A stretch of 64,000 nt of DNA from Chloroflexota bacterium (GCA_014360825.1 JACIWT010000008.1:1-64000), one strand, 5' to 3'; shown: positions 3,148 to 10,009, numbered from the stretch's first letter. Numbers and translations are program-made. Notes: generated from the letters alone by a model not told the origin.

Positions 3148-3175
3148 TTGACAATCTGCGACAAAGTAGTATAAT
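3148..3175 (+). promoter_or_regulatory. Promoter of the arsR operon
   Basis: A perfect -35 box TTGACA (3148-3153) and a perfect -10 box TATAAT (3170-3175) are separated by 16 bases. The start of arsR at 3252 follows about 70 bases later. The -10 box overlaps the inverted repeat at 3173-3192. Confidence 0.85.
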
Positions 3176-3192
3176 TCAACCCGCGTTGAATT
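3173..3192. promoter_or_regulatory. Probable ArsR operator
   Basis: A perfect inverted repeat AATTCAAC-CCGC-GTTGAATT, 8-bp arms and 4-base centre, sits on and just after the -10 box. ArsR-family repressors bind such dyads over the promoter and leave when arsenite binds. Assignment to this ArsR is an inference from position. Confidence 0.75.
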
Positions 3193-3251
3193 ATTACCGC
3201 CGTTTGTAACCTGTGGGATGGACTGATGGGGATGCGAAAAGGAGCGCTGTG

Positions 3252-3644
3252 ATGGATCCAAGCGTAGCGGATAGGAGAAAACTGGCTGGCCTGTTCCGCG
3301 TGCTCAGCGAACCCAATCGTTTGGCGATCTTCGACTTGCTGATGCAAGGCGTGCAGTGCAATTGCGAGATCGGCAAGCGCCTGGGACTGCCCATGAACCT
3401 GGTCTCGCATCACCTCCGGGTGCTGCGGGATGCCGGGCTGGTGGAAGCCCAGCGCGAGCCCACCGATGCCCGCTGGGTGTATTACTCCGTCAAGAAGGCG
3501 GCGCTGACCGAATGCTGCGCCCGCATCACGGAGTTCCTCGCACCATCGCGCATCCAACCTCGCCTGCCATCATGCGGGCCGGCATCCGCCCAGCCGATCA
3601 CCGAACGCCTTGTGCCCAGCGCAATCCACCTCGAACGAGATTAG
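3252..3644 (+). CDS. arsR: ArsR-family metalloregulator (arsenic type)
   Basis: A winged-helix repressor of about 130 residues. The ATG at 3252 follows AAAAGGAGCG at a good distance. It has the ArsR core LFRVLSEPNRLAIFDLLMQG, a recognition region MNLVSHHLRVLRDAGLV and a wing WVYYS. Cys36 and Cys38 (VQCNCEI) match the CxC arsenic-binding pair of classic ArsR proteins. A further Cys pair (TECCARI) lies towards the C-terminus and could serve as extra ligands. The tail after about residue 105 is proline-rich and not typical of the family. It is followed by glutaredoxin and ArsM, so arsenite is the likely inducer. Confidence 0.9.
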   Translation: MDPSVADRRKLAGLFRVLSEPNRLAIFDLLMQGVQCNCEIGKRLGLPMNLVSHHLRVLRDAGLVEAQREPTDARWVYYSVKKAALTECCARITEFLAPSRIQPRLPSCGPASAQPITERLVPSAIHLERD

Positions 3645-3686
3645 ACGGAGGATGGAATCTCTCTGTAGCGAAGAAAGGAACCGTCT

Positions 3687-3914
3687 ATGGCCGAGCAAAC
3701 GAACGTCACAGTGGAAATCTTCACCAAGCCCGGGTGTCCTTATAGTCGGGCGCTGAAGCGCAAACTCGAGCACGACGGCACGCCCTACGTGGAGCACAAC
3801 GTGCAAAAGGATGCCGCCGCATTGCAACGCATGCTGGCCCTCAACGGTGGGCAGCGCAACGTGCCCACCATCCTGATGGGCGAGGAGGTGATCGTCGGCT
3901 TTCACGGAATGTGA
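3687..3914 (+). CDS. Glutaredoxin-like protein
   Basis: A 75-residue thioredoxin-fold protein with the active-site motif CPYS (TKPGCPYSRALKRKL), the cis-Pro segment NVPTILM and the final GFHGM typical of short glutaredoxin-family proteins. The motif has one catalytic cysteine plus Ser, as in monothiol types. It lies 42 bases after arsR, which suggests co-transcription. A role in supplying reducing power for arsenic handling, for example for the methyltransferase that follows, is an inference. No arsenate reductase of the ArsC type is seen. Confidence 0.85.
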   Translation: MAEQTNVTVEIFTKPGCPYSRALKRKLEHDGTPYVEHNVQKDAAALQRMLALNGGQRNVPTILMGEEVIVGFHGM

Positions 3915-4021
3915 ACGGTATAGCAAGTCGGCCGTGAGCCGGCGCGGAACCCTGGGAGAAGAGAGCACCAGACGTAATTTATGTCAAAAATATCCTGAAT
4001 TCCAACTACGAGGTAATACCA

Positions 4022-4792
4022 ATGGAGACATCGAAAACGCAAAGAATCGTGAGGGAAGCCTACGGCAAGATCGCCCAAGGGCAAGGAGGTTGTGGCTGCA
4101 GTTGTTGTGGACCCAGTCCGAGAGAATTCGCGATGGCCATTGGCTATTCCGAAGAGGAACTGACGGTGATACCCGAAGAGGCGAACCTGGCCCTCAGTTG
4201 TGGAAACCCCACCGCCCTGGCCAGCCTGAAAGAGGGCGAGGTGGTCCTGGACCTTGGCTCGGGTGCCGGGTTCGATTGTTTCCTGGCTGCCGCCAGAGTG
4301 GGCCCAACCGGCAAGGTCATCGGGGTGGATATGACGCCCCAGATGCTTGAGCGGGCAAGGGATACGGCCAGAAAGCATGGGTTCGGCAATGTCGAGTTTC
4401 GGCTCGGCGAGATCGAAAACCTGCCGGTTGCAGATAACTCGGTGGATGTAGTGATCAGCAACTGCGTGATTAACCTCTCGCCCGATAAGCCCAAAGTCTT
4501 TCGCGAGATCTACAGGGTGCTGAAGCCAAATGGGAGGATAGCGATTTCGGATGTTGCTCTGCGCCGCGAACTCCCCAGGGAGGTTCGAGAGAGTCCGGAG
4601 GCGTACGTCCGTTGTGTTGGCGGGGCAATATTGGTGGACGAGTACCGAAAAATCGTCGAGGCATCCGGGTTGAAAGATGTGAGAATCATCGTCGAAGAGC
4701 CTTCCTGTTGCGTAGAGTCTATCAACGAGGGTCTAAAAGGCGAATCCGTGGCGGAATGCGTAGCGAACATTTACGTGGAGGGACATAAATGA
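4022..4792 (+). CDS. arsM: Arsenite S-adenosylmethionine methyltransferase
   Basis: This 256-residue protein has the class I methyltransferase fold with motif I VLDLGSGAGFD and the family signature SNCVINLSPDK. Cys60 (ALSCGNP), Cys148 (SNCV) and Cys198 (VRCVGG) line up with the three cysteines that bind As(III) in known ArsM enzymes; the 50-residue distance between the last two is the same as in the well-studied algal enzyme (from memory). An unusual cysteine cluster GCGCSCCG at residues 23-30 also fits many bacterial members. The enzyme methylates As(III) stepwise, giving volatile or excreted methylarsenicals. It is probably the last gene of the arsR unit, after a 107-base gap. Confidence 0.93.
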   Translation: METSKTQRIVREAYGKIAQGQGGCGCSCCGPSPREFAMAIGYSEEELTVIPEEANLALSCGNPTALASLKEGEVVLDLGSGAGFDCFLAAARVGPTGKVIGVDMTPQMLERARDTARKHGFGNVEFRLGEIENLPVADNSVDVVISNCVINLSPDKPKVFREIYRVLKPNGRIAISDVALRRELPREVRESPEAYVRCVGGAILVDEYRKIVEASGLKDVRIIVEEPSCCVESINEGLKGESVAECVANIYVEGHK

Positions 4793-4846
4793 AATCGGCG
4801 GCGATCTCTCCGACCGCCTCTGGTGATGGGAAAGGATAGCGCAGCA

Positions 4847-5107
4847 ATGAACGAACAGGAACTGGAAGAACTGGTGGCTTCGGTCACGCCAGAAAGAGTC
4901 CGCCAACTGGTGTTGGAACTGGAACCCCAGCAACCCAAAGCCGATCGGGGCACGGTCCCCCTCTACGCCCTGCTGGAGGCCCTGACCGCGCACCTGCCCC
5001 TGCGCGAGGCGGCCGCGCGGTCACCCGTCGAGATGCGCCTGCGAAAGGCGATCATCGCCGCAGTGGCGCAGATTGAGGGCATGACTTTCGTCGAAGGCGA
5101 CGCTTGA
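4847..5107 (+). CDS. Unknown small acidic protein, first gene of the Suf-like operon
   Basis: The product from the ATG at 4847 has 86 residues (an in-frame ATG at 4823 is possible; the later one has GGAAAGGA upstream). It is rich in Glu, Leu and Ala and looks all-helical: LEELVASVTPERVRQLVLEL, a middle segment with PLYALLEALTAHLPLREAAA, then MRLRKAIIAAVAQIEG. There are no cysteines and no membrane segment. I do not recognise the family. It comes 55 bases after arsM and leads a run of genes that ends in sufC/sufB-like genes, so it may belong to that operon. Confidence 0.6.
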   Translation: MNEQELEELVASVTPERVRQLVLELEPQQPKADRGTVPLYALLEALTAHLPLREAAARSPVEMRLRKAIIAAVAQIEGMTFVEGDA

Positions 5108-5259
5108 TGAACCCCTGATTTCATCTCCCTGGAGGGGAGATAGGGCCCATTTGGATTTCCCTCTCCTGATCGGGCGAGGGGTTTCGCAGTGCGGCGAGGG
5201 TGGAGAGCGGCGCATCTGACATCCTGCGCGCCGGCTGCGCAGAACGGAGAACGCGAACG

Positions 5260-5406
5260 ATGAAGAAAGCGTTGGTGGTGCCACTGACCGAAGAGGAACT
5301 GCAGAGTTTGTGTCGCATCCTGCTGGACCGAGACGAGAAGGAGGCCTTGCGCTTCCTGGAGGAGCATCTCAAGAAGCCGGCCAACGAAGCACTGGCCGGC
5401 GGCTGA
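5260..5406 (+). CDS. Unknown 48-residue protein
   Basis: A short protein starting at the ATG at 5260 behind CGGAGAACG. It reads MKKALVVPLTEEELQSLCRI followed by a charged helix (RDEKEALRFLEEHL). One cysteine is present. The first half has the look of a strand followed by a helix; no known family is recognised. It sits 90 bases before the iron-sulfur protein gene and 150 bases after the previous small gene, in the same direction. Because it is so short, the coding call depends on the ribosome site and on context. Confidence 0.55.
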   Translation: MKKALVVPLTEEELQSLCRILLDRDEKEALRFLEEHLKKPANEALAGG

Positions 5407-5495
5407 AAGGTGCTCATCGAGGTGCCCGGGGCGGGCATCCAAAAAGCGGATGGGCAGCGGCTGTTCTGAAAGAGGGAACGGCTGAAGAGGCAACA

Positions 5496-6041
5496 ATGAC
5501 CGGAAACGATTTGTTATTGCACAGTTTCGCCATCACCCATATACTGGATTGCATCGCCGACCCGACCAAGAACCGGGTCATTGCCGAGTTCTCTGACAAC
5601 GTTGCTGCTGTCTTCCCTTATCTGAACGCCACCATCCCCAATCTGATGTATAATCCTGGGGCCAATAGTGTCACCATCAAGCGGCAATGGCGCATCCTCA
5701 CCTTTTACCCGCACGTGGCAGTGATGGCCAAAGTGGACGGGGTCGAGGATGCGGTCGCTCAACTCACCTGGTTTCAGGAACTGTGCAACGAGACCTGGCA
5801 GCGACGGGCGCAGATCAAGCCCTGCTACGAACCGCGAAAGTTGCTGGGGCCACTCGATGTTTATCTTTTGTTGCCACGGCTTAACTGCAGGGATTGTGGT
5901 GAGGCTACCTGCATGGCCTTCGCTTTCGAACTGCTATTGGGTGGCCGCCACCTTTCGGAATGCCGGCGTTTGAGCGAACCAGAATACATCGAGGGTGGCC
6001 GGCGGTTAGCACAACTCTTGGGAATAGATGAAAAATGCTGA
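5496..6041 (+). CDS. Iron-sulfur protein with an ACDS/CdhD-type 4Fe-4S domain
   Basis: The ATG at 5496 follows GAAGAGGCAACA and gives 181 residues. The N-terminal 110 residues are not recognised. Near the C-terminus LPRLNCRDCGEATCMAFAFE and a later SEC give the CxxCxxxxC-x(n)-C pattern of the Fe-S domain found in the corrinoid/Fe-S subunits of CO dehydrogenase/acetyl-CoA synthase and in RnfB-like proteins. The gene overlaps the SufC-like gene by 7 bases, so the two are translated together. It could be a client or a scaffold of the Suf-like pair; that is inference. No CO dehydrogenase genes are in the window. Confidence 0.75.
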   Translation: MTGNDLLLHSFAITHILDCIADPTKNRVIAEFSDNVAAVFPYLNATIPNLMYNPGANSVTIKRQWRILTFYPHVAVMAKVDGVEDAVAQLTWFQELCNETWQRRAQIKPCYEPRKLLGPLDVYLLLPRLNCRDCGEATCMAFAFELLLGGRHLSECRRLSEPEYIEGGRRLAQLLGIDEKC

Positions 6042-6772
6042 GATTGGAGAACGTAACGATTATCCCCGCCAATTCTGGCGAAGCCATCGTCCACGACGTT
6101 AGTTTCACCGTGCGGGAGCGGGAGATCCACGCCCTGGTGGGCCCTAATGGCTCCGGTAAGTCTTCCATCGCCTATGCCATCATGGGACTGGCGGGCTACC
6201 GCCCCCAGCAGGGGCGCATTTACTTCCGGGACCAGGACATCACCGCGCTCTCGGTTACCGAACGAGCCCGCTTGGGCATCACTTTGGCCTGGCAGGAGCC
6301 GGTTCGCTTCGAGGGCATCACCATCGGGGATTACGTCTGCGCCGGCATCCGCGATGGAGATGGCCAGCGCGTGCGGGAGGCCCTGACCCTCGTCGGCCTG
6401 GATCCCGATCTGTATGCCACGCGCAAAGCCGATGCTTCCCTGAGCGGTGGTGAGCGCAAGCGGGTCGAACTGGCGGCAGTGGTGGCTATGCGACCACGAC
6501 TGATGATCCTCGACGAGCCCGATTCTGGACTGGACATCATCGTCTACGATGAGTTGCACGAGATGCTGTCTCGGATTCGCCGCGACACCGGCGCGGCCAT
6601 CCTGCTCATCACCCACCGCGAGGAGACAGGGGACATCGCCGACGCAGCCACCTTGCTGTGGCAGGGGCGGGTGCTGAAGACCGGCGACTTCTCCGAAGTG
6701 ATGCAAGTCTATTGCCTGGCGGCAGGAAGGAGGGAGCGATGTCGCAGCAAGTACTGCCCTATGCCATCTTAG
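6035..6772 (+). CDS. sufC: SufC-like ABC ATPase
   Basis: A 245-residue ABC ATPase with Walker A GPNGSGKSS, signature LSGGERKRVE and Walker B LMILDEPDSGLD. The DSGLD ending and the signature are those of SufC, the ATPase of the SUF iron-sulfur cluster machine, rather than of a membrane transporter. It overlaps the preceding Fe-S protein gene by 7 bases and the SufB/D-like gene by 34 bases. The last 20 residues are read over the start of that gene. With only one SufB/D-like partner, this resembles the minimal SmsCB (SufCB) form known from archaea and anaerobic bacteria. Confidence 0.88.
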   Translation: MLRLENVTIIPANSGEAIVHDVSFTVREREIHALVGPNGSGKSSIAYAIMGLAGYRPQQGRIYFRDQDITALSVTERARLGITLAWQEPVRFEGITIGDYVCAGIRDGDGQRVREALTLVGLDPDLYATRKADASLSGGERKRVELAAVVAMRPRLMILDEPDSGLDIIVYDELHEMLSRIRRDTGAAILLITHREETGDIADAATLLWQGRVLKTGDFSEVMQVYCLAAGRRERCRSKYCPMPS

Positions 6773-7686
6773 AGAGCGCGCGAGAGGTGGGCTTCGATGT
6801 GGACACGATGCTCCAGCCCGACACGCCAAAATTCTTCCTCAACTTCAACCAGATCACCGCGGTCCAAGAGGTGCCGGGACTCATCCTGACCGGACGAGAA
6901 CTGCCGAACGGCGTCATGGCCGACGTCATCGTCACCAAAGGGACGAAGATCAAGCGCCCCATTCACCTCTGCTTCGGCGTCCTCCCCGAAGAGGGAGTGC
7001 AGGAGATTGTGCCGCGCTTCATCATCGAGGACGAGGCAGAGGCATTGATCCTGGCCCACTGCAGTTTCCCCCAGGCCCGCAATCTGACCCACCGCATGGA
7101 GGCCCAGGTGATGATCGGGCGCGATGCCCTGTTTTTCTACGAGGAGCGACACTACCACGGCCCCTACAGTGGCGCTCACGTGTACCCCGCTTTTGAGGTG
7201 GACGTTGGTCCAGGCAGCCGTTTCGAGACCGTCTTCTCCCTCACTCACGGCACAGTGGGCGAATTGGTCATCTACCTCGACGTCTATGCCCACGAAAGGG
7301 CAAAAGTGGAGGCGGTGGCCAAAGCCTATGGCCGCAGCGAGAAAGACCGGGTGCGCATCCGCGATGGCATCTTCCTGGAGGGGCGGGACGCCAGCGGGGT
7401 GATCCGCCTGCGGGCAGCGGCCACGGGCGGCGGCGATGTGTTGATGGTGGGCATCACCGAGGCGAACGCTCCCGGGGCAAAAGGGCATGTGGACTGCAAG
7501 GAGATCGTGCAGGGCGCGCACTCTACGGCCCGGGCGATCCCCATCGTGCGGGTAACCGATGATCAGGCCCGGGTGACCCACGAGGCAGCGGTGGGGCGGG
7601 TGAGCCAGAAGGAATTGGATACCCTTATGGCCCGCGGTTTGACCGAACAGGAAGCCGTGGATATGATTGTGAAAGGGATGCTGTGA
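6739..7686 (+). CDS. sufB: SufB/SufD-family scaffold protein (minimal SufB)
   Basis: Starting at the ATG at 6739 behind AAGGAGGGAGCG, the product has 315 residues, shorter than classic SufB (about 470). It shows the SufBD beta-helix core and the family ending: GHVDCKEIVQGAHSTARAIP, then VTHEAAVGRVSQKELDTLMA and RGLTEQEAVDMIVKGML. In SUF systems SufB with SufC builds Fe-S clusters. The Cys and His of the GHVDCKE region are candidate cluster ligands. No SufS, SufU or SufD is nearby, so sulfur must come from elsewhere or the pair is specialised. Co-directional with the MIP18-type gene two genes on. Confidence 0.88.
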   Translation: MSQQVLPYAILESAREVGFDVDTMLQPDTPKFFLNFNQITAVQEVPGLILTGRELPNGVMADVIVTKGTKIKRPIHLCFGVLPEEGVQEIVPRFIIEDEAEALILAHCSFPQARNLTHRMEAQVMIGRDALFFYEERHYHGPYSGAHVYPAFEVDVGPGSRFETVFSLTHGTVGELVIYLDVYAHERAKVEAVAKAYGRSEKDRVRIRDGIFLEGRDASGVIRLRAAATGGGDVLMVGITEANAPGAKGHVDCKEIVQGAHSTARAIPIVRVTDDQARVTHEAAVGRVSQKELDTLMARGLTEQEAVDMIVKGML

Positions 7687-7698
7687 AGGAAGACGCTC

Positions 7699-8298
7699 AT
7701 GGAGATAAGATACCAATACAAAGGCGTGCCCAGGTTCCGGATCCCCCAACCCTGGTATGAGCATACCAATTGGGAGCCTTGGGACGAAGATCGGGTCAGT
7801 TGGCTTTTGGTCAACCGCAATCGGCGGCTCATTGTCCAGGCTCTCATCCAGGGGCCACTGACCCTGGATGAGTTGAGGGAGCGGCTGCAGGTCCACCTGA
7901 GCCCTTATCTAACCGACCGCAGTGGCCTCGCGCTGAATATTTCGCCGGAGGCACTGACCAATCACCTGCACGTAATGGAGCACCACGGACTGATCCGCCT
8001 GGAGGGAGATCGCTACGCGTTGAACTTGCCGGTCCTGACGCTGGACGACCAGCAAAGGATGGGCCCTCTGGGCGAGGCGTTGGGGCGAGAACTGGCCGAA
8101 CGCTTGCGCCAGGCAGAGATGGAGCCCGAATGGTTGGATCCGCTTTTGGAGCGGGCCACGACGACGGCTTTGGAAACGTTAGACGATGATTACGAGTGGG
8201 AGACCTATCGGCGTTGGGTCGAGGAATACGATGCGGATGTCCACCGTAACCGGACGGTGGCCAGGGCGAGGATACATAAAGTGGAGGGAAAATGCTAA
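7699..8298 (+). CDS. Winged-helix domain protein, unknown target
   Basis: 199 residues. The middle holds an ArsR-like winged helix: RRLIVQALIQGPLTLDELRE, a recognition part SPEALTNHLHVMEHHGLI and a wing RLEGDRYALN. The N-terminal 35 residues are rich in aromatic residues (YQYKGVPRFRIPQPWYEH); the C-terminal part is a long charged helix. No cysteine cluster is seen in the DNA-binding part, so it is unlike IscR or SufR. It follows the SufB-like gene by 12 bases and overlaps the next gene by 7, so it is probably the local regulator of the operon. That role is an inference. Confidence 0.7.
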   Translation: MEIRYQYKGVPRFRIPQPWYEHTNWEPWDEDRVSWLLVNRNRRLIVQALIQGPLTLDELRERLQVHLSPYLTDRSGLALNISPEALTNHLHVMEHHGLIRLEGDRYALNLPVLTLDDQQRMGPLGEALGRELAERLRQAEMEPEWLDPLLERATTTALETLDDDYEWETYRRWVEEYDADVHRNRTVARARIHKVEGKC

Positions 8299-8573
8299 CA
8301 CAAGAGACCATTCTGGACGCTTTGCGTTCAGTAACAGACCCGGAGATCGGGATGAGCGTGGTGGATCTGGGCATGATCCGCGAGATCGTGCTGGGTGATA
8401 AGGGAAAAGTGGAGATTAAGATGGTGCTGACCACCCCCTTCTGCCCCTTGGCCAATATGCTCGTGGAACAGGTGCGCCATGCGGCGGCGGTCGTGCCCGG
8501 AGTGCGAGAGGCGAAAGTAACCCTGTTAGACGAGCCTTGGGACCCGTCCTGGATGAAGCAATCCGCGCCGTGA
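8292..8573 (+). CDS. MIP18/SufT (DUF59) Fe-S assembly protein
   Basis: 93 residues with the MIP18 pattern: LRSVTDPEIGMSVVDLGMIR at the N-terminus and TTPFCPLANMLVEQV around the conserved cysteine. Proteins of this family (SufT, CIA2, PaaD-like) help mature iron-sulfur proteins. The ATG is 4 bases after a GGAGGG site and overlaps the winged-helix gene by 7 bases. Its presence next to SufC/SufB strengthens the reading of this operon as an Fe-S assembly unit. Confidence 0.9.
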   Translation: MLTQETILDALRSVTDPEIGMSVVDLGMIREIVLGDKGKVEIKMVLTTPFCPLANMLVEQVRHAAAVVPGVREAKVTLLDEPWDPSWMKQSAP

Positions 8574-8645
8574 GCAGATGAACTCCATTGGCACAGCCGG
8601 CGAGGGAACCACAGGCAAGACAGTTTGGCAAAAGGACGGACAGGG

Positions 8646-9425
8646 ATGGAAACAAAAGGCATCATTCAGGCGTTATCGCAGTGTCTTGAGGCCAACGAAC
8701 CAGTGGCCCTGGCCACCGTGGTGGAGATAAAAGGCGCTTCGCCCGCCCAGGTGGGCTTCAAACTGTTGGTGCGCCCCGATGGAAGCGTGATGGGAAACAT
8801 CGGCGGCGGGGCGCTGGAGCAGCGAATACGGACGGAAGCGATGGCTGCCCTGAGCGAAGGCAAATCCCGCCTGGTCCATTACACCCTGCGCGAGAAAGGC
8901 GCCGATGCCGTGGGGATGCTGTGCGGTGGCGAGGCCACCGTGTTCGTCGAGGTGTATCAGCCAGCGCCCGTCCTGCTCATCGTCGGCGGCGGACACATCG
9001 GCCGCCCATTGGCCGAAATGGCGCGCATCCTGGGCTTCCACGTCCAGGTGGTGGACGTGCGCCCCGATCGCGCCACCACCCCCCAATTCGATCCGGCCAC
9101 CATCACCCCCTGGACTTATGTGGTGGTCATCACCGAGAGCCACATCACCGACGAGCAAGCGCTGCGCCAGGTGCTTGGCACTTCAGCCGCTTACGTGGGT
9201 ATGATCGGCAGCCGGCGCAAGGTGGGCGTGATCTTCGATCACCTGCGCGCTGAGGGCGTGCCGGAGGAGCGGCTGGCGCGCGTCCATGCCCCCATCGGGC
9301 TGGACCTGGGCGGTCGCTCGCCAGCCGAGATCGCCCTGGCTATCCTGGCGGAGATCGTGCAGGTGCGCTATGGCGGGACGGGGACGCCGAAGGCGCAAGT
9401 CGCCGAGGAGAGAGCCGAGGCTTAA
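8646..9425 (+). CDS. xdhC: XdhC/CoxI-family molybdenum-cofactor maturation protein
   Basis: From the ATG at 8646 (GGACGGACAGGG upstream) the protein has 259 residues with both XdhC halves: an N-terminal XdhC_CoxI domain (PVALATVVEIKGASPAQVG, GGGALEQ, CGGEATVFVE) and a C-terminal Rossmann domain (VLLIVGGGHIGRPLAEMA, YVGMIGSRRK, GLDLGGRSPAEIALAI). Family members bind molybdenum cofactor, help insert its sulfur and load it into xanthine or CO dehydrogenase-type enzymes. No such enzyme is in the window. It is 72 bases downstream of the MIP18 gene and its end overlaps the convergent YkoP-like gene by 4 bases. Confidence 0.9.
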   Translation: METKGIIQALSQCLEANEPVALATVVEIKGASPAQVGFKLLVRPDGSVMGNIGGGALEQRIRTEAMAALSEGKSRLVHYTLREKGADAVGMLCGGEATVFVEVYQPAPVLLIVGGGHIGRPLAEMARILGFHVQVVDVRPDRATTPQFDPATITPWTYVVVITESHITDEQALRQVLGTSAAYVGMIGSRRKVGVIFDHLRAEGVPEERLARVHAPIGLDLGGRSPAEIALAILAEIVQVRYGGTGTPKAQVAEERAEA

Positions 9426-10009
9426 TCCCCCTCCCGCTGGCTATCTCCGCCGTAGCGGCGCAGGAACTCATCGGCGGACATCCATATCTCCGCCCGGCGC
9501 AGGCGGATCAGTTGCCGGCGTCGCAGGCTGACGGCGTTAAATGTCCACATCAGGCACCAGGCGTAGAAATTCTCCCAGAATTCGCCAAAACGTCCCAAAG
9601 GGCTGTGAAAAGGCACGACAGTGAACCCCAGCCGTTCCATCAGACGCATCCCAGAGGGGCGGTCTGGGGAAAGTAAGACCGTCACCCCACCGAGGGCGCG
9701 CGCCCCGGCCAGTCGCGGGTCGTGCTCCATCTGCCGGGCCAAACTGCGCAGCGAGTGAATCAGCATCCGCCGCACCCGGGTGGCCCAGATCAGGTCAGGG
9801 CCGGCCGATGGCAGCGCTGGGATATGCTCGTTCCAGAGGTGGAGTTCCAACACCGGCTCGCCGGCTTCCACGACCTCCTGCGATAGTGCCAGCGGGTGCG
9901 GCGCGACCGTGAGGCGCAGGCGCAACAGGCAATCCTCATCCTCGCAGTACTCGAAGACCCCGTAGGCTGCGCGGAGCAGGCCGTCGAAGCGGCGGATCAG
10001 GGTGCGCAT
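9422..10009 (-). CDS. YkoP-like domain protein
   Basis: 195 residues without signal peptide. The N-terminal half (RRFDGLLRAAYGVFEYCEDE and later ELHLWNEHIPALP) matches, from memory, the YkoP-like domain often found beside polysaccharide deacetylases and lipid-related enzymes in Firmicutes and Chloroflexota. A segment RLMERLGFTVVPFHSPLGRF follows, then a Trp-rich piece (WENFYAWCLMWTFN) and a basic tail. The biochemical function is not known. It starts 3 bases after the EamA-type transporter gene and so is co-transcribed with it. The family call is tentative. Confidence 0.6.
   Translation of the reverse strand: MRTLIRRFDGLLRAAYGVFEYCEDEDCLLRLRLTVAPHPLALSQEVVEAGEPVLELHLWNEHIPALPSAGPDLIWATRVRRMLIHSLRSLARQMEHDPRLAGARALGGVTVLLSPDRPSGMRLMERLGFTVVPFHSPLGRFGEFWENFYAWCLMWTFNAVSLRRRQLIRLRRAEIWMSADEFLRRYGGDSQREGD

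Follow-up and report, generated by a model that had tools for sequence, protein, structure and literature searches.

A SufC-like ATPase and a SufB-like protein are encoded side by side, with no cysteine desulfurase next to them, near the start of the 64,000-nucleotide stretch of DNA analysed here (the window), and we asked which Fe-S assembly machine this pair represents and which enzymes it serves. The original prediction was a candidate new machine dedicated to a molybdenum or CO-dehydrogenase-type enzyme. Our data indicate that the locus encodes a known machine, the SMS system, as a divergent copy in new company. The best explanation, to which we assign a probability of roughly one half, is an ArsR-repressed polycistron that would make an SMS-type Fe-S scaffold together with helper proteins and serve molybdenum hydroxylases. 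SMS has no desulfurase or carrier of its own. A recurring bacterial set in which SmsC and SmsB (SmsCB) are accompanied by XdhC, MIP18, and an as yet unnamed Fe-S protein with its 48-residue partner therefore bears on sulfur supply, cluster delivery, and client choice, since it suggests specific proteins as candidate carrier, reductant, and client.

Organization of the operon

The window belongs to a bacterium of the class Anaerolineae whose genome is 97.9% complete. All genes between 4847 and 9425 are on the + strand and closely spaced, as predicted, with overlaps of 7 nt (FeS/SmsC and WH/MIP18) and 34 nt (SmsC/SmsB) and a spacing of 12 nt between SmsB and WH (Table 1). Pfam and NCBIfam confirmed the families proposed for FeS (PF04060), SufC, the SUFBD core, the winged helix, MIP18 (PF01883), and XdhC. 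The MIP18 protein carries the conserved DPE and T..CP motifs in its PF01883 domain, and XdhC contains both the XdhC_CoxI domain and the XdhC_C Rossmann domain. The two small proteins (sm1 and sm2) had been regarded as early genes; ArsR, Grx, and ArsM in fact stand first, and the layout indicates that the transcription unit begins at ArsR (3252) rather than at 4847 and takes in Grx and ArsM. Neighbouring genes on both sides lie on the − strand (1556-2341 upstream and 9422-10009 downstream). From gene spacing we infer a single polycistron of approximately 3252-9425, although gaps of 54-152 nt ahead of sm1, sm2, and FeS leave room for internal promoters. The perfect inverted repeat ahead of ArsR is probably the ArsR operator.

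Table 1. Coordinates of the operon features within the window
Feature	Position	Strand	Basis or remark
Promoter TTGACA-16-TATAAT	3148..3175	+	12/12 matches, sigma-70
Perfect inverted repeat ATAATTCAAC-CCGC-GTTGAATTAT, 10-nt arms; putative ArsR operator	3171..3194	.	Overlaps −10 box
ArsR/SmtB repressor, CxC metal-site motif (QCNCEI)	3252..3644	+	PF01022; motif read from sequence
UXX-star glutaredoxin-like (Grx) selenoprotein, probable	3687..3923	+	UGA 3912-3914 as Sec; end U-T-V-stop
Hairpin 3' of UGA, probable SECIS, 5-bp stem, 5-nt loop CGUGA	3926..3944	+	5 pairs in 6 sequences
ArsM arsenite methyltransferase	4022..4792	+	NF008823, 335 bits, cut-off 263
sm1, 86 aa, unnamed conserved family	4847..5107	+	Homologues in relatives
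sm2, 48 aa, C-terminal Gly-Gly, unnamed conserved family	5260..5406	+	Homologues in relatives
FeS, ~110-aa N-terminal domain and CFeSP-type 4Fe-4S domain	5496..6041	+	PF04060
SmsC ATPase, non-canonical C-terminal cysteines	6035..6772	+	PDB match, alignment
SmsB, short type, 315 aa	6739..7686	+	SUFBD core; PDB match
Winged-helix protein (WH; HTH_20, ArsR-like)	7699..8298	+	Present only in window and L155
MIP18/DUF59 (SufT-like), DPE and TPFCP motifs	8292..8573	+	PF01883; motifs read from sequence
XdhC-family Moco chaperone, nearest model XdhC_rel_AOR	8646..9425	+	Profile match

A search against Rfam gave no match. An inverted repeat (ATCTCCC/GGGAGAT) at 5123-5141, between sm1 and sm2, lacks a T run and might serve in processing or attenuation. 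Outside the operon, a pair of small ORFs at 381-1006 resembles, by eye only, a MazE/MazF toxin-antitoxin module and is followed by apparently repeated DNA at approximately 1018-1545.

The scaffold is a divergent SMS system

The closest PDB matches of SmsC and SmsB are MJ0035 (9h78; E 2.6e-69) and MJ0034 (9h7y; E 2.5e-64), respectively, both nearly full length. MJ0034 and MJ0035 form the SmsC2B2 complex of Methanocaldococcus jannaschii, a minimal SMS system in which a [4Fe-4S] cluster is held on SmsC by C218, C239, and C242, the sulfur source is sulfide, and there is no desulfurase (PMC12192291). Like its counterpart in M. jannaschii, the window SmsB is short and lacks a long N-terminal region, a type typical of the methanogen clade (PMC12442378). 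The two systems also share adjacent smsCB genes, an SmsC with Walker and ABC signature motifs, and a locus without SufD or SufS. SmsC and SmsB homologues lie together in one operon here, SufE is likewise absent from the locus, and SmsB is the only SufBD protein of the genome; the SUF combination of SufB, SufC, and SufD with SufS plus SufE or SufU was not found. Homology thus identifies the pair as a short (methanogen-type) SmsC/SmsB SMS system, an already known machine. Since a lone SufB/SufC pair is what the published SMS system consists of (PMC12192291), its presence is expected, and the claim of a new machine falls. The lack of a cysteine desulfurase noted originally holds at the locus but not in the genome, where two of three IscU homologues adjoin IscS (contigs C14 and C21).

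The window system differs from that of M. jannaschii in its position inside an ArsR/molybdenum operon and in the C-terminus of SmsC, where the ligand pattern C218, C239, and C242 is not kept. A Trp occupies the C218 position, which is Cys in 39/39 other relatives aligned, the C239-x-x-C242 spacing is absent, and three cysteines occur at shifted places. Because the number, position, and spacing of C-terminal cysteines vary among SmsC proteins (PMC12192291), we treated the ligand cysteines as a variable trait rather than a strict criterion. The copy is divergent: the stem that it shares with locus L155 measures 1.54 substitutions per site (the median branch is 0.12). With the standard ligand Cys lost, the window SmsC may or may not bind a cluster in the published way, which makes this protein a ready-made test case for the published cluster site.

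The gene set recurs in relatives

Apart from the pairs sm2-FeS and SmsC-SmsB, relatives other than L155 do not retain strict gene order. The conditions under which the original prediction was to be given up therefore yield a mixed answer: order is lost, but the small proteins are conserved and the gene set recurs. L155, a stretch of 3005 bp in another assembly (G076:C38), is collinear with 6115-9065 of the window at 89.8% identity, and dN/dS between the two is 0.04-0.17 for SmsC, SmsB, WH, MIP18, and XdhC. We read the SmsC-SmsB-WH-MIP18-XdhC order as being under purifying selection. The L155 assembly represents another family, and its two sampled congeners (G007 and G045) do not carry the stretch; L155 could be either a recent transfer or a contaminant contig.

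A run in one relative lies on one strand at locus L190 (family f40) and reads XdhC-SmsC-SmsB-small ORF-MoeA-XDH FAD-XDH 2Fe2S-XDH Mo-XDH Mo2-sm2-FeS, with overlaps at XdhC/SmsC and XDH/sm2. Shorter versions are SmsB-MIP18-FeS (L205, f32) and SmsC-SmsB-MIP18 with XdhC about 6 kb further (L060, f19). In genomes G002 and G003 (f2), SmsCB has XdhC, MIP18, and a gene for an XDH Mo subunit in its vicinity. At L124/L055 and L142/L053, FeS or its paralogue, MIP18, XdhC, XDH, and the cluster SmsCB-ArsR-Grx-sm1 fall within about 30 kb, and a NifX-like gene lies within about 30 kb of that cluster in G002/G003. Partial sets occur as XdhC-sm2-FeS (L129), sm2-FeS-XdhC (L256), and sm2-FeS followed by a tungsten-type radical SAM maturase (L255).

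SmsB lies within 20 kb of a FeS-family gene in 8 of the 22 genomes that have both (0.37 expected; 6/20 when the window genome and G003 are set aside) and is linked to sm1 in 5/8 (0.03 expected). These figures, like that for sm2 and FeS given below, presuppose that genes are placed at random and that genomes are independent of one another, and therefore serve as guides only. Most SmsB loci in the class have no FeS or XdhC alongside, and sm1 and sm2-FeS are found also without SmsCB. Loci L065, L060, L054, and L142 are rich in genes for YlbF/HcsL-like, UshA-like (seleno)protein, and FeS-dicluster proteins and tungsten radical SAM maturases, which suggests a recurring anaerobic metal/redox gene pool.

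Two small proteins and a two-domain Fe-S protein

Neither sm1 nor sm2 matched Pfam or NCBIfam, in keeping with the prediction that they have no recognised family, and both proved to be conserved. We found sm1 in 16/396 class genomes; it adjoins the UXX-star Grx in four (G001, G002, G003, and G006), is close to SmsCB in G002, G003, G181, and G204, and has an Fe-S gene nearby in two others (G013 and G135). A single-sequence AlphaFold model of sm1 (pLDDT 77) had no PDB match. The sm2 protein is present in 31/396 class genomes and is 48 aa long with a Gly-Gly end in 27 of the 29 sequences read. In 26 of the 28 genomes with both genes, no more than 5 kb separates it from an Fe-S-family gene (0.11 expected). 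A phylum-wide profile search for sm2 returned only few weak extra matches, so within the phylum its range looks largely confined to Anaerolineae. The sm2/FeS pair deserves attention for its repeated company with SmsCB and molybdenum-hydroxylase genes.

FeS had been called an ACDS-type Fe-S protein. Its C-terminal domain of about 50 residues is indeed the N-terminal 4Fe-4S domain of the corrinoid Fe-S protein gamma subunit (ACDS/CFeSP), but the remainder of that protein, the corrinoid-binding and TIM-barrel parts, is absent. FeS instead has an N-terminal domain of its own (~110 aa), beta-rich in a confident model (pLDDT 87) that also contains the 4Fe-4S domain; structure matches to this N-terminal domain are TBP/OGG1-like and weak (E above 0.1). 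A second member of this two-domain Fe-S family, about 35% identical, is encoded elsewhere in the window genome (L141, G000:C11), beside dicluster ferredoxins and a thioredoxin-like membrane protein.

Candidate clients of the scaffold

XDH-type molybdenum hydroxylases require [2Fe-2S] clusters as well as Moco. The L190 run supports a tie of the operon to these enzymes rather than to CODH/ACS. XDH genes near SmsCB also occur in G002 and G003. The molybdenum half of the predicted client survives; we saw no sign of a link to CODH/ACS. Proximity to xanthine dehydrogenase genes, which the original prediction had named as a check, is seen in relatives but not in the window genome, whose two Mo-hydroxylase loci are both on other contigs and unlinked to the operon; the genome also encodes 8 AOR-type genes. 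XdhC is known to bind and protect Moco during its sulfuration by a desulfurase (PMC2997495). The window XdhC resembles XdhC/CoxI Moco chaperones in having both Pfam domains and, in relatives, linkage to XDH genes, and differs from them in being apparently co-transcribed with an Fe-S scaffold and in having no target enzyme in its operon. Among the papers listed, we found no relevant one linking SufB/SmsB with XdhC. We infer client specificity for Mo hydroxylases from these gene neighbourhoods.

In the mechanism that we favour, As(III) or another thiophilic metalloid, the presumed inducer, or a similar stress would release ArsR, and the selenoglutaredoxin and ArsM would take the metalloid and thiol side. 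SmsC2B2 is predicted to build [4Fe-4S] clusters, with sulfur probably supplied as sulfide or persulfide since the operon encodes no desulfurase. The sm2/FeS pair and MIP18 may hand electrons or clusters to client enzymes, and XdhC would load and protect sulfurated Moco in xanthine-dehydrogenase-type Mo hydroxylases. A stricter version is unlikely, namely that SmsCB is a dedicated Fe-S line for molybdenum hydroxylases (and perhaps for tungsten enzymes too) and that sm2, with its 48 residues, is an adaptor or a sulfur-relay peptide that uses its C-terminal Gly-Gly to act on the two-domain Fe-S protein.

It is possible, if doubtful, that SmsCB is a general housekeeping scaffold for many Fe-S proteins of an anaerobe, with loosely related metal/redox genes as neighbours and XdhC and MIP18 as passengers. 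Such a role would suit the sole SufBD homologue of the genome, the absence of FeS and XdhC beside SmsCB in most relatives, and the shuffled assortment of anaerobic metal/redox genes that surrounds such loci throughout the class. However, the separate IscS/IscU pairs could cover that job, and linkage among XdhC, XDH, and FeS is repeated in several families. Deletion of SMS in Methanosarcina acetivorans left growth and total Fe-S content unharmed (PMC10500019), and this dispensability fits a special rather than a universal role.

The regulatory genes at the head of the operon could also be taken to mean metalloid-damage repair, in which ArsR induces SmsCB, ArsM, and the selenoglutaredoxin to rebuild clusters that arsenite or other thiophilic agents have destroyed, with XdhC and MIP18 part of the same response. 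We consider this improbable, despite the CxC motif of ArsR, the presence of ArsM, the perfect promoter and dyad, and the retention of SmsCB-ArsR-Grx-sm1 in G002 and G003. The operon has no arsenite efflux pump, ArsM does not adjoin Grx in G002/G003, and a search for the dyad upstream of ArsR at L053 and L055 found none; moreover, restriction to stress would be odd for the only SufBD scaffold of the genome. A CODH/ACS-type corrinoid activation line is by far the least probable reading and was rejected: FeS has only the 4Fe-4S domain of ~50 residues in common with the corrinoid protein, reading the FeS loci (by eye and with a limited reference-protein set) turned up no neighbouring CODH/ACS gene, and sequences that match whole ACS gamma homologues sit elsewhere, at loci of their own.

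A probable selenoprotein

The Grx ORF contains an in-frame UGA (3912) followed by ACG GTA TAG, at which plain ORF callers cut the selenoprotein short. Reading UGA as Sec gives a whole-model match to the UXX-star glutaredoxin-like selenoproteins (NF041212; 93.5 bits, cut-off 66), whereas the match to UXX-star family 1 is 67 bits, under its cut-off of 72. The Sec-X-X-stop end and a hairpin after the UGA are shared with NF041212; pairing with sm1 sets the window Grx apart. An in-frame C-terminal U-X-X-stop is present in 7 genomes in all: in each of the five homologues inspected this site reads UGA-(Thr/Ala)-Val-stop, and a sixth homologue came from a pattern search of the loci. All cells of the hairpin are paired and 3/5 pairs covary among 6 sequences, although single-sequence folding energies are not unusual, and the hairpin is probably a SECIS. 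A tRNA-Sec is encoded in the genome (71 bits, with ARAGORN in agreement), and the UGA is probably read as Sec. ArsM and sm1 also share a frame (region 4790-5107) across a single UGA, which we judged to be chance; fusion of the two through this UGA (4790), read as Sec, was rejected, as relatives carry sm1 without ArsM and with its own conserved start (MNEQEL).
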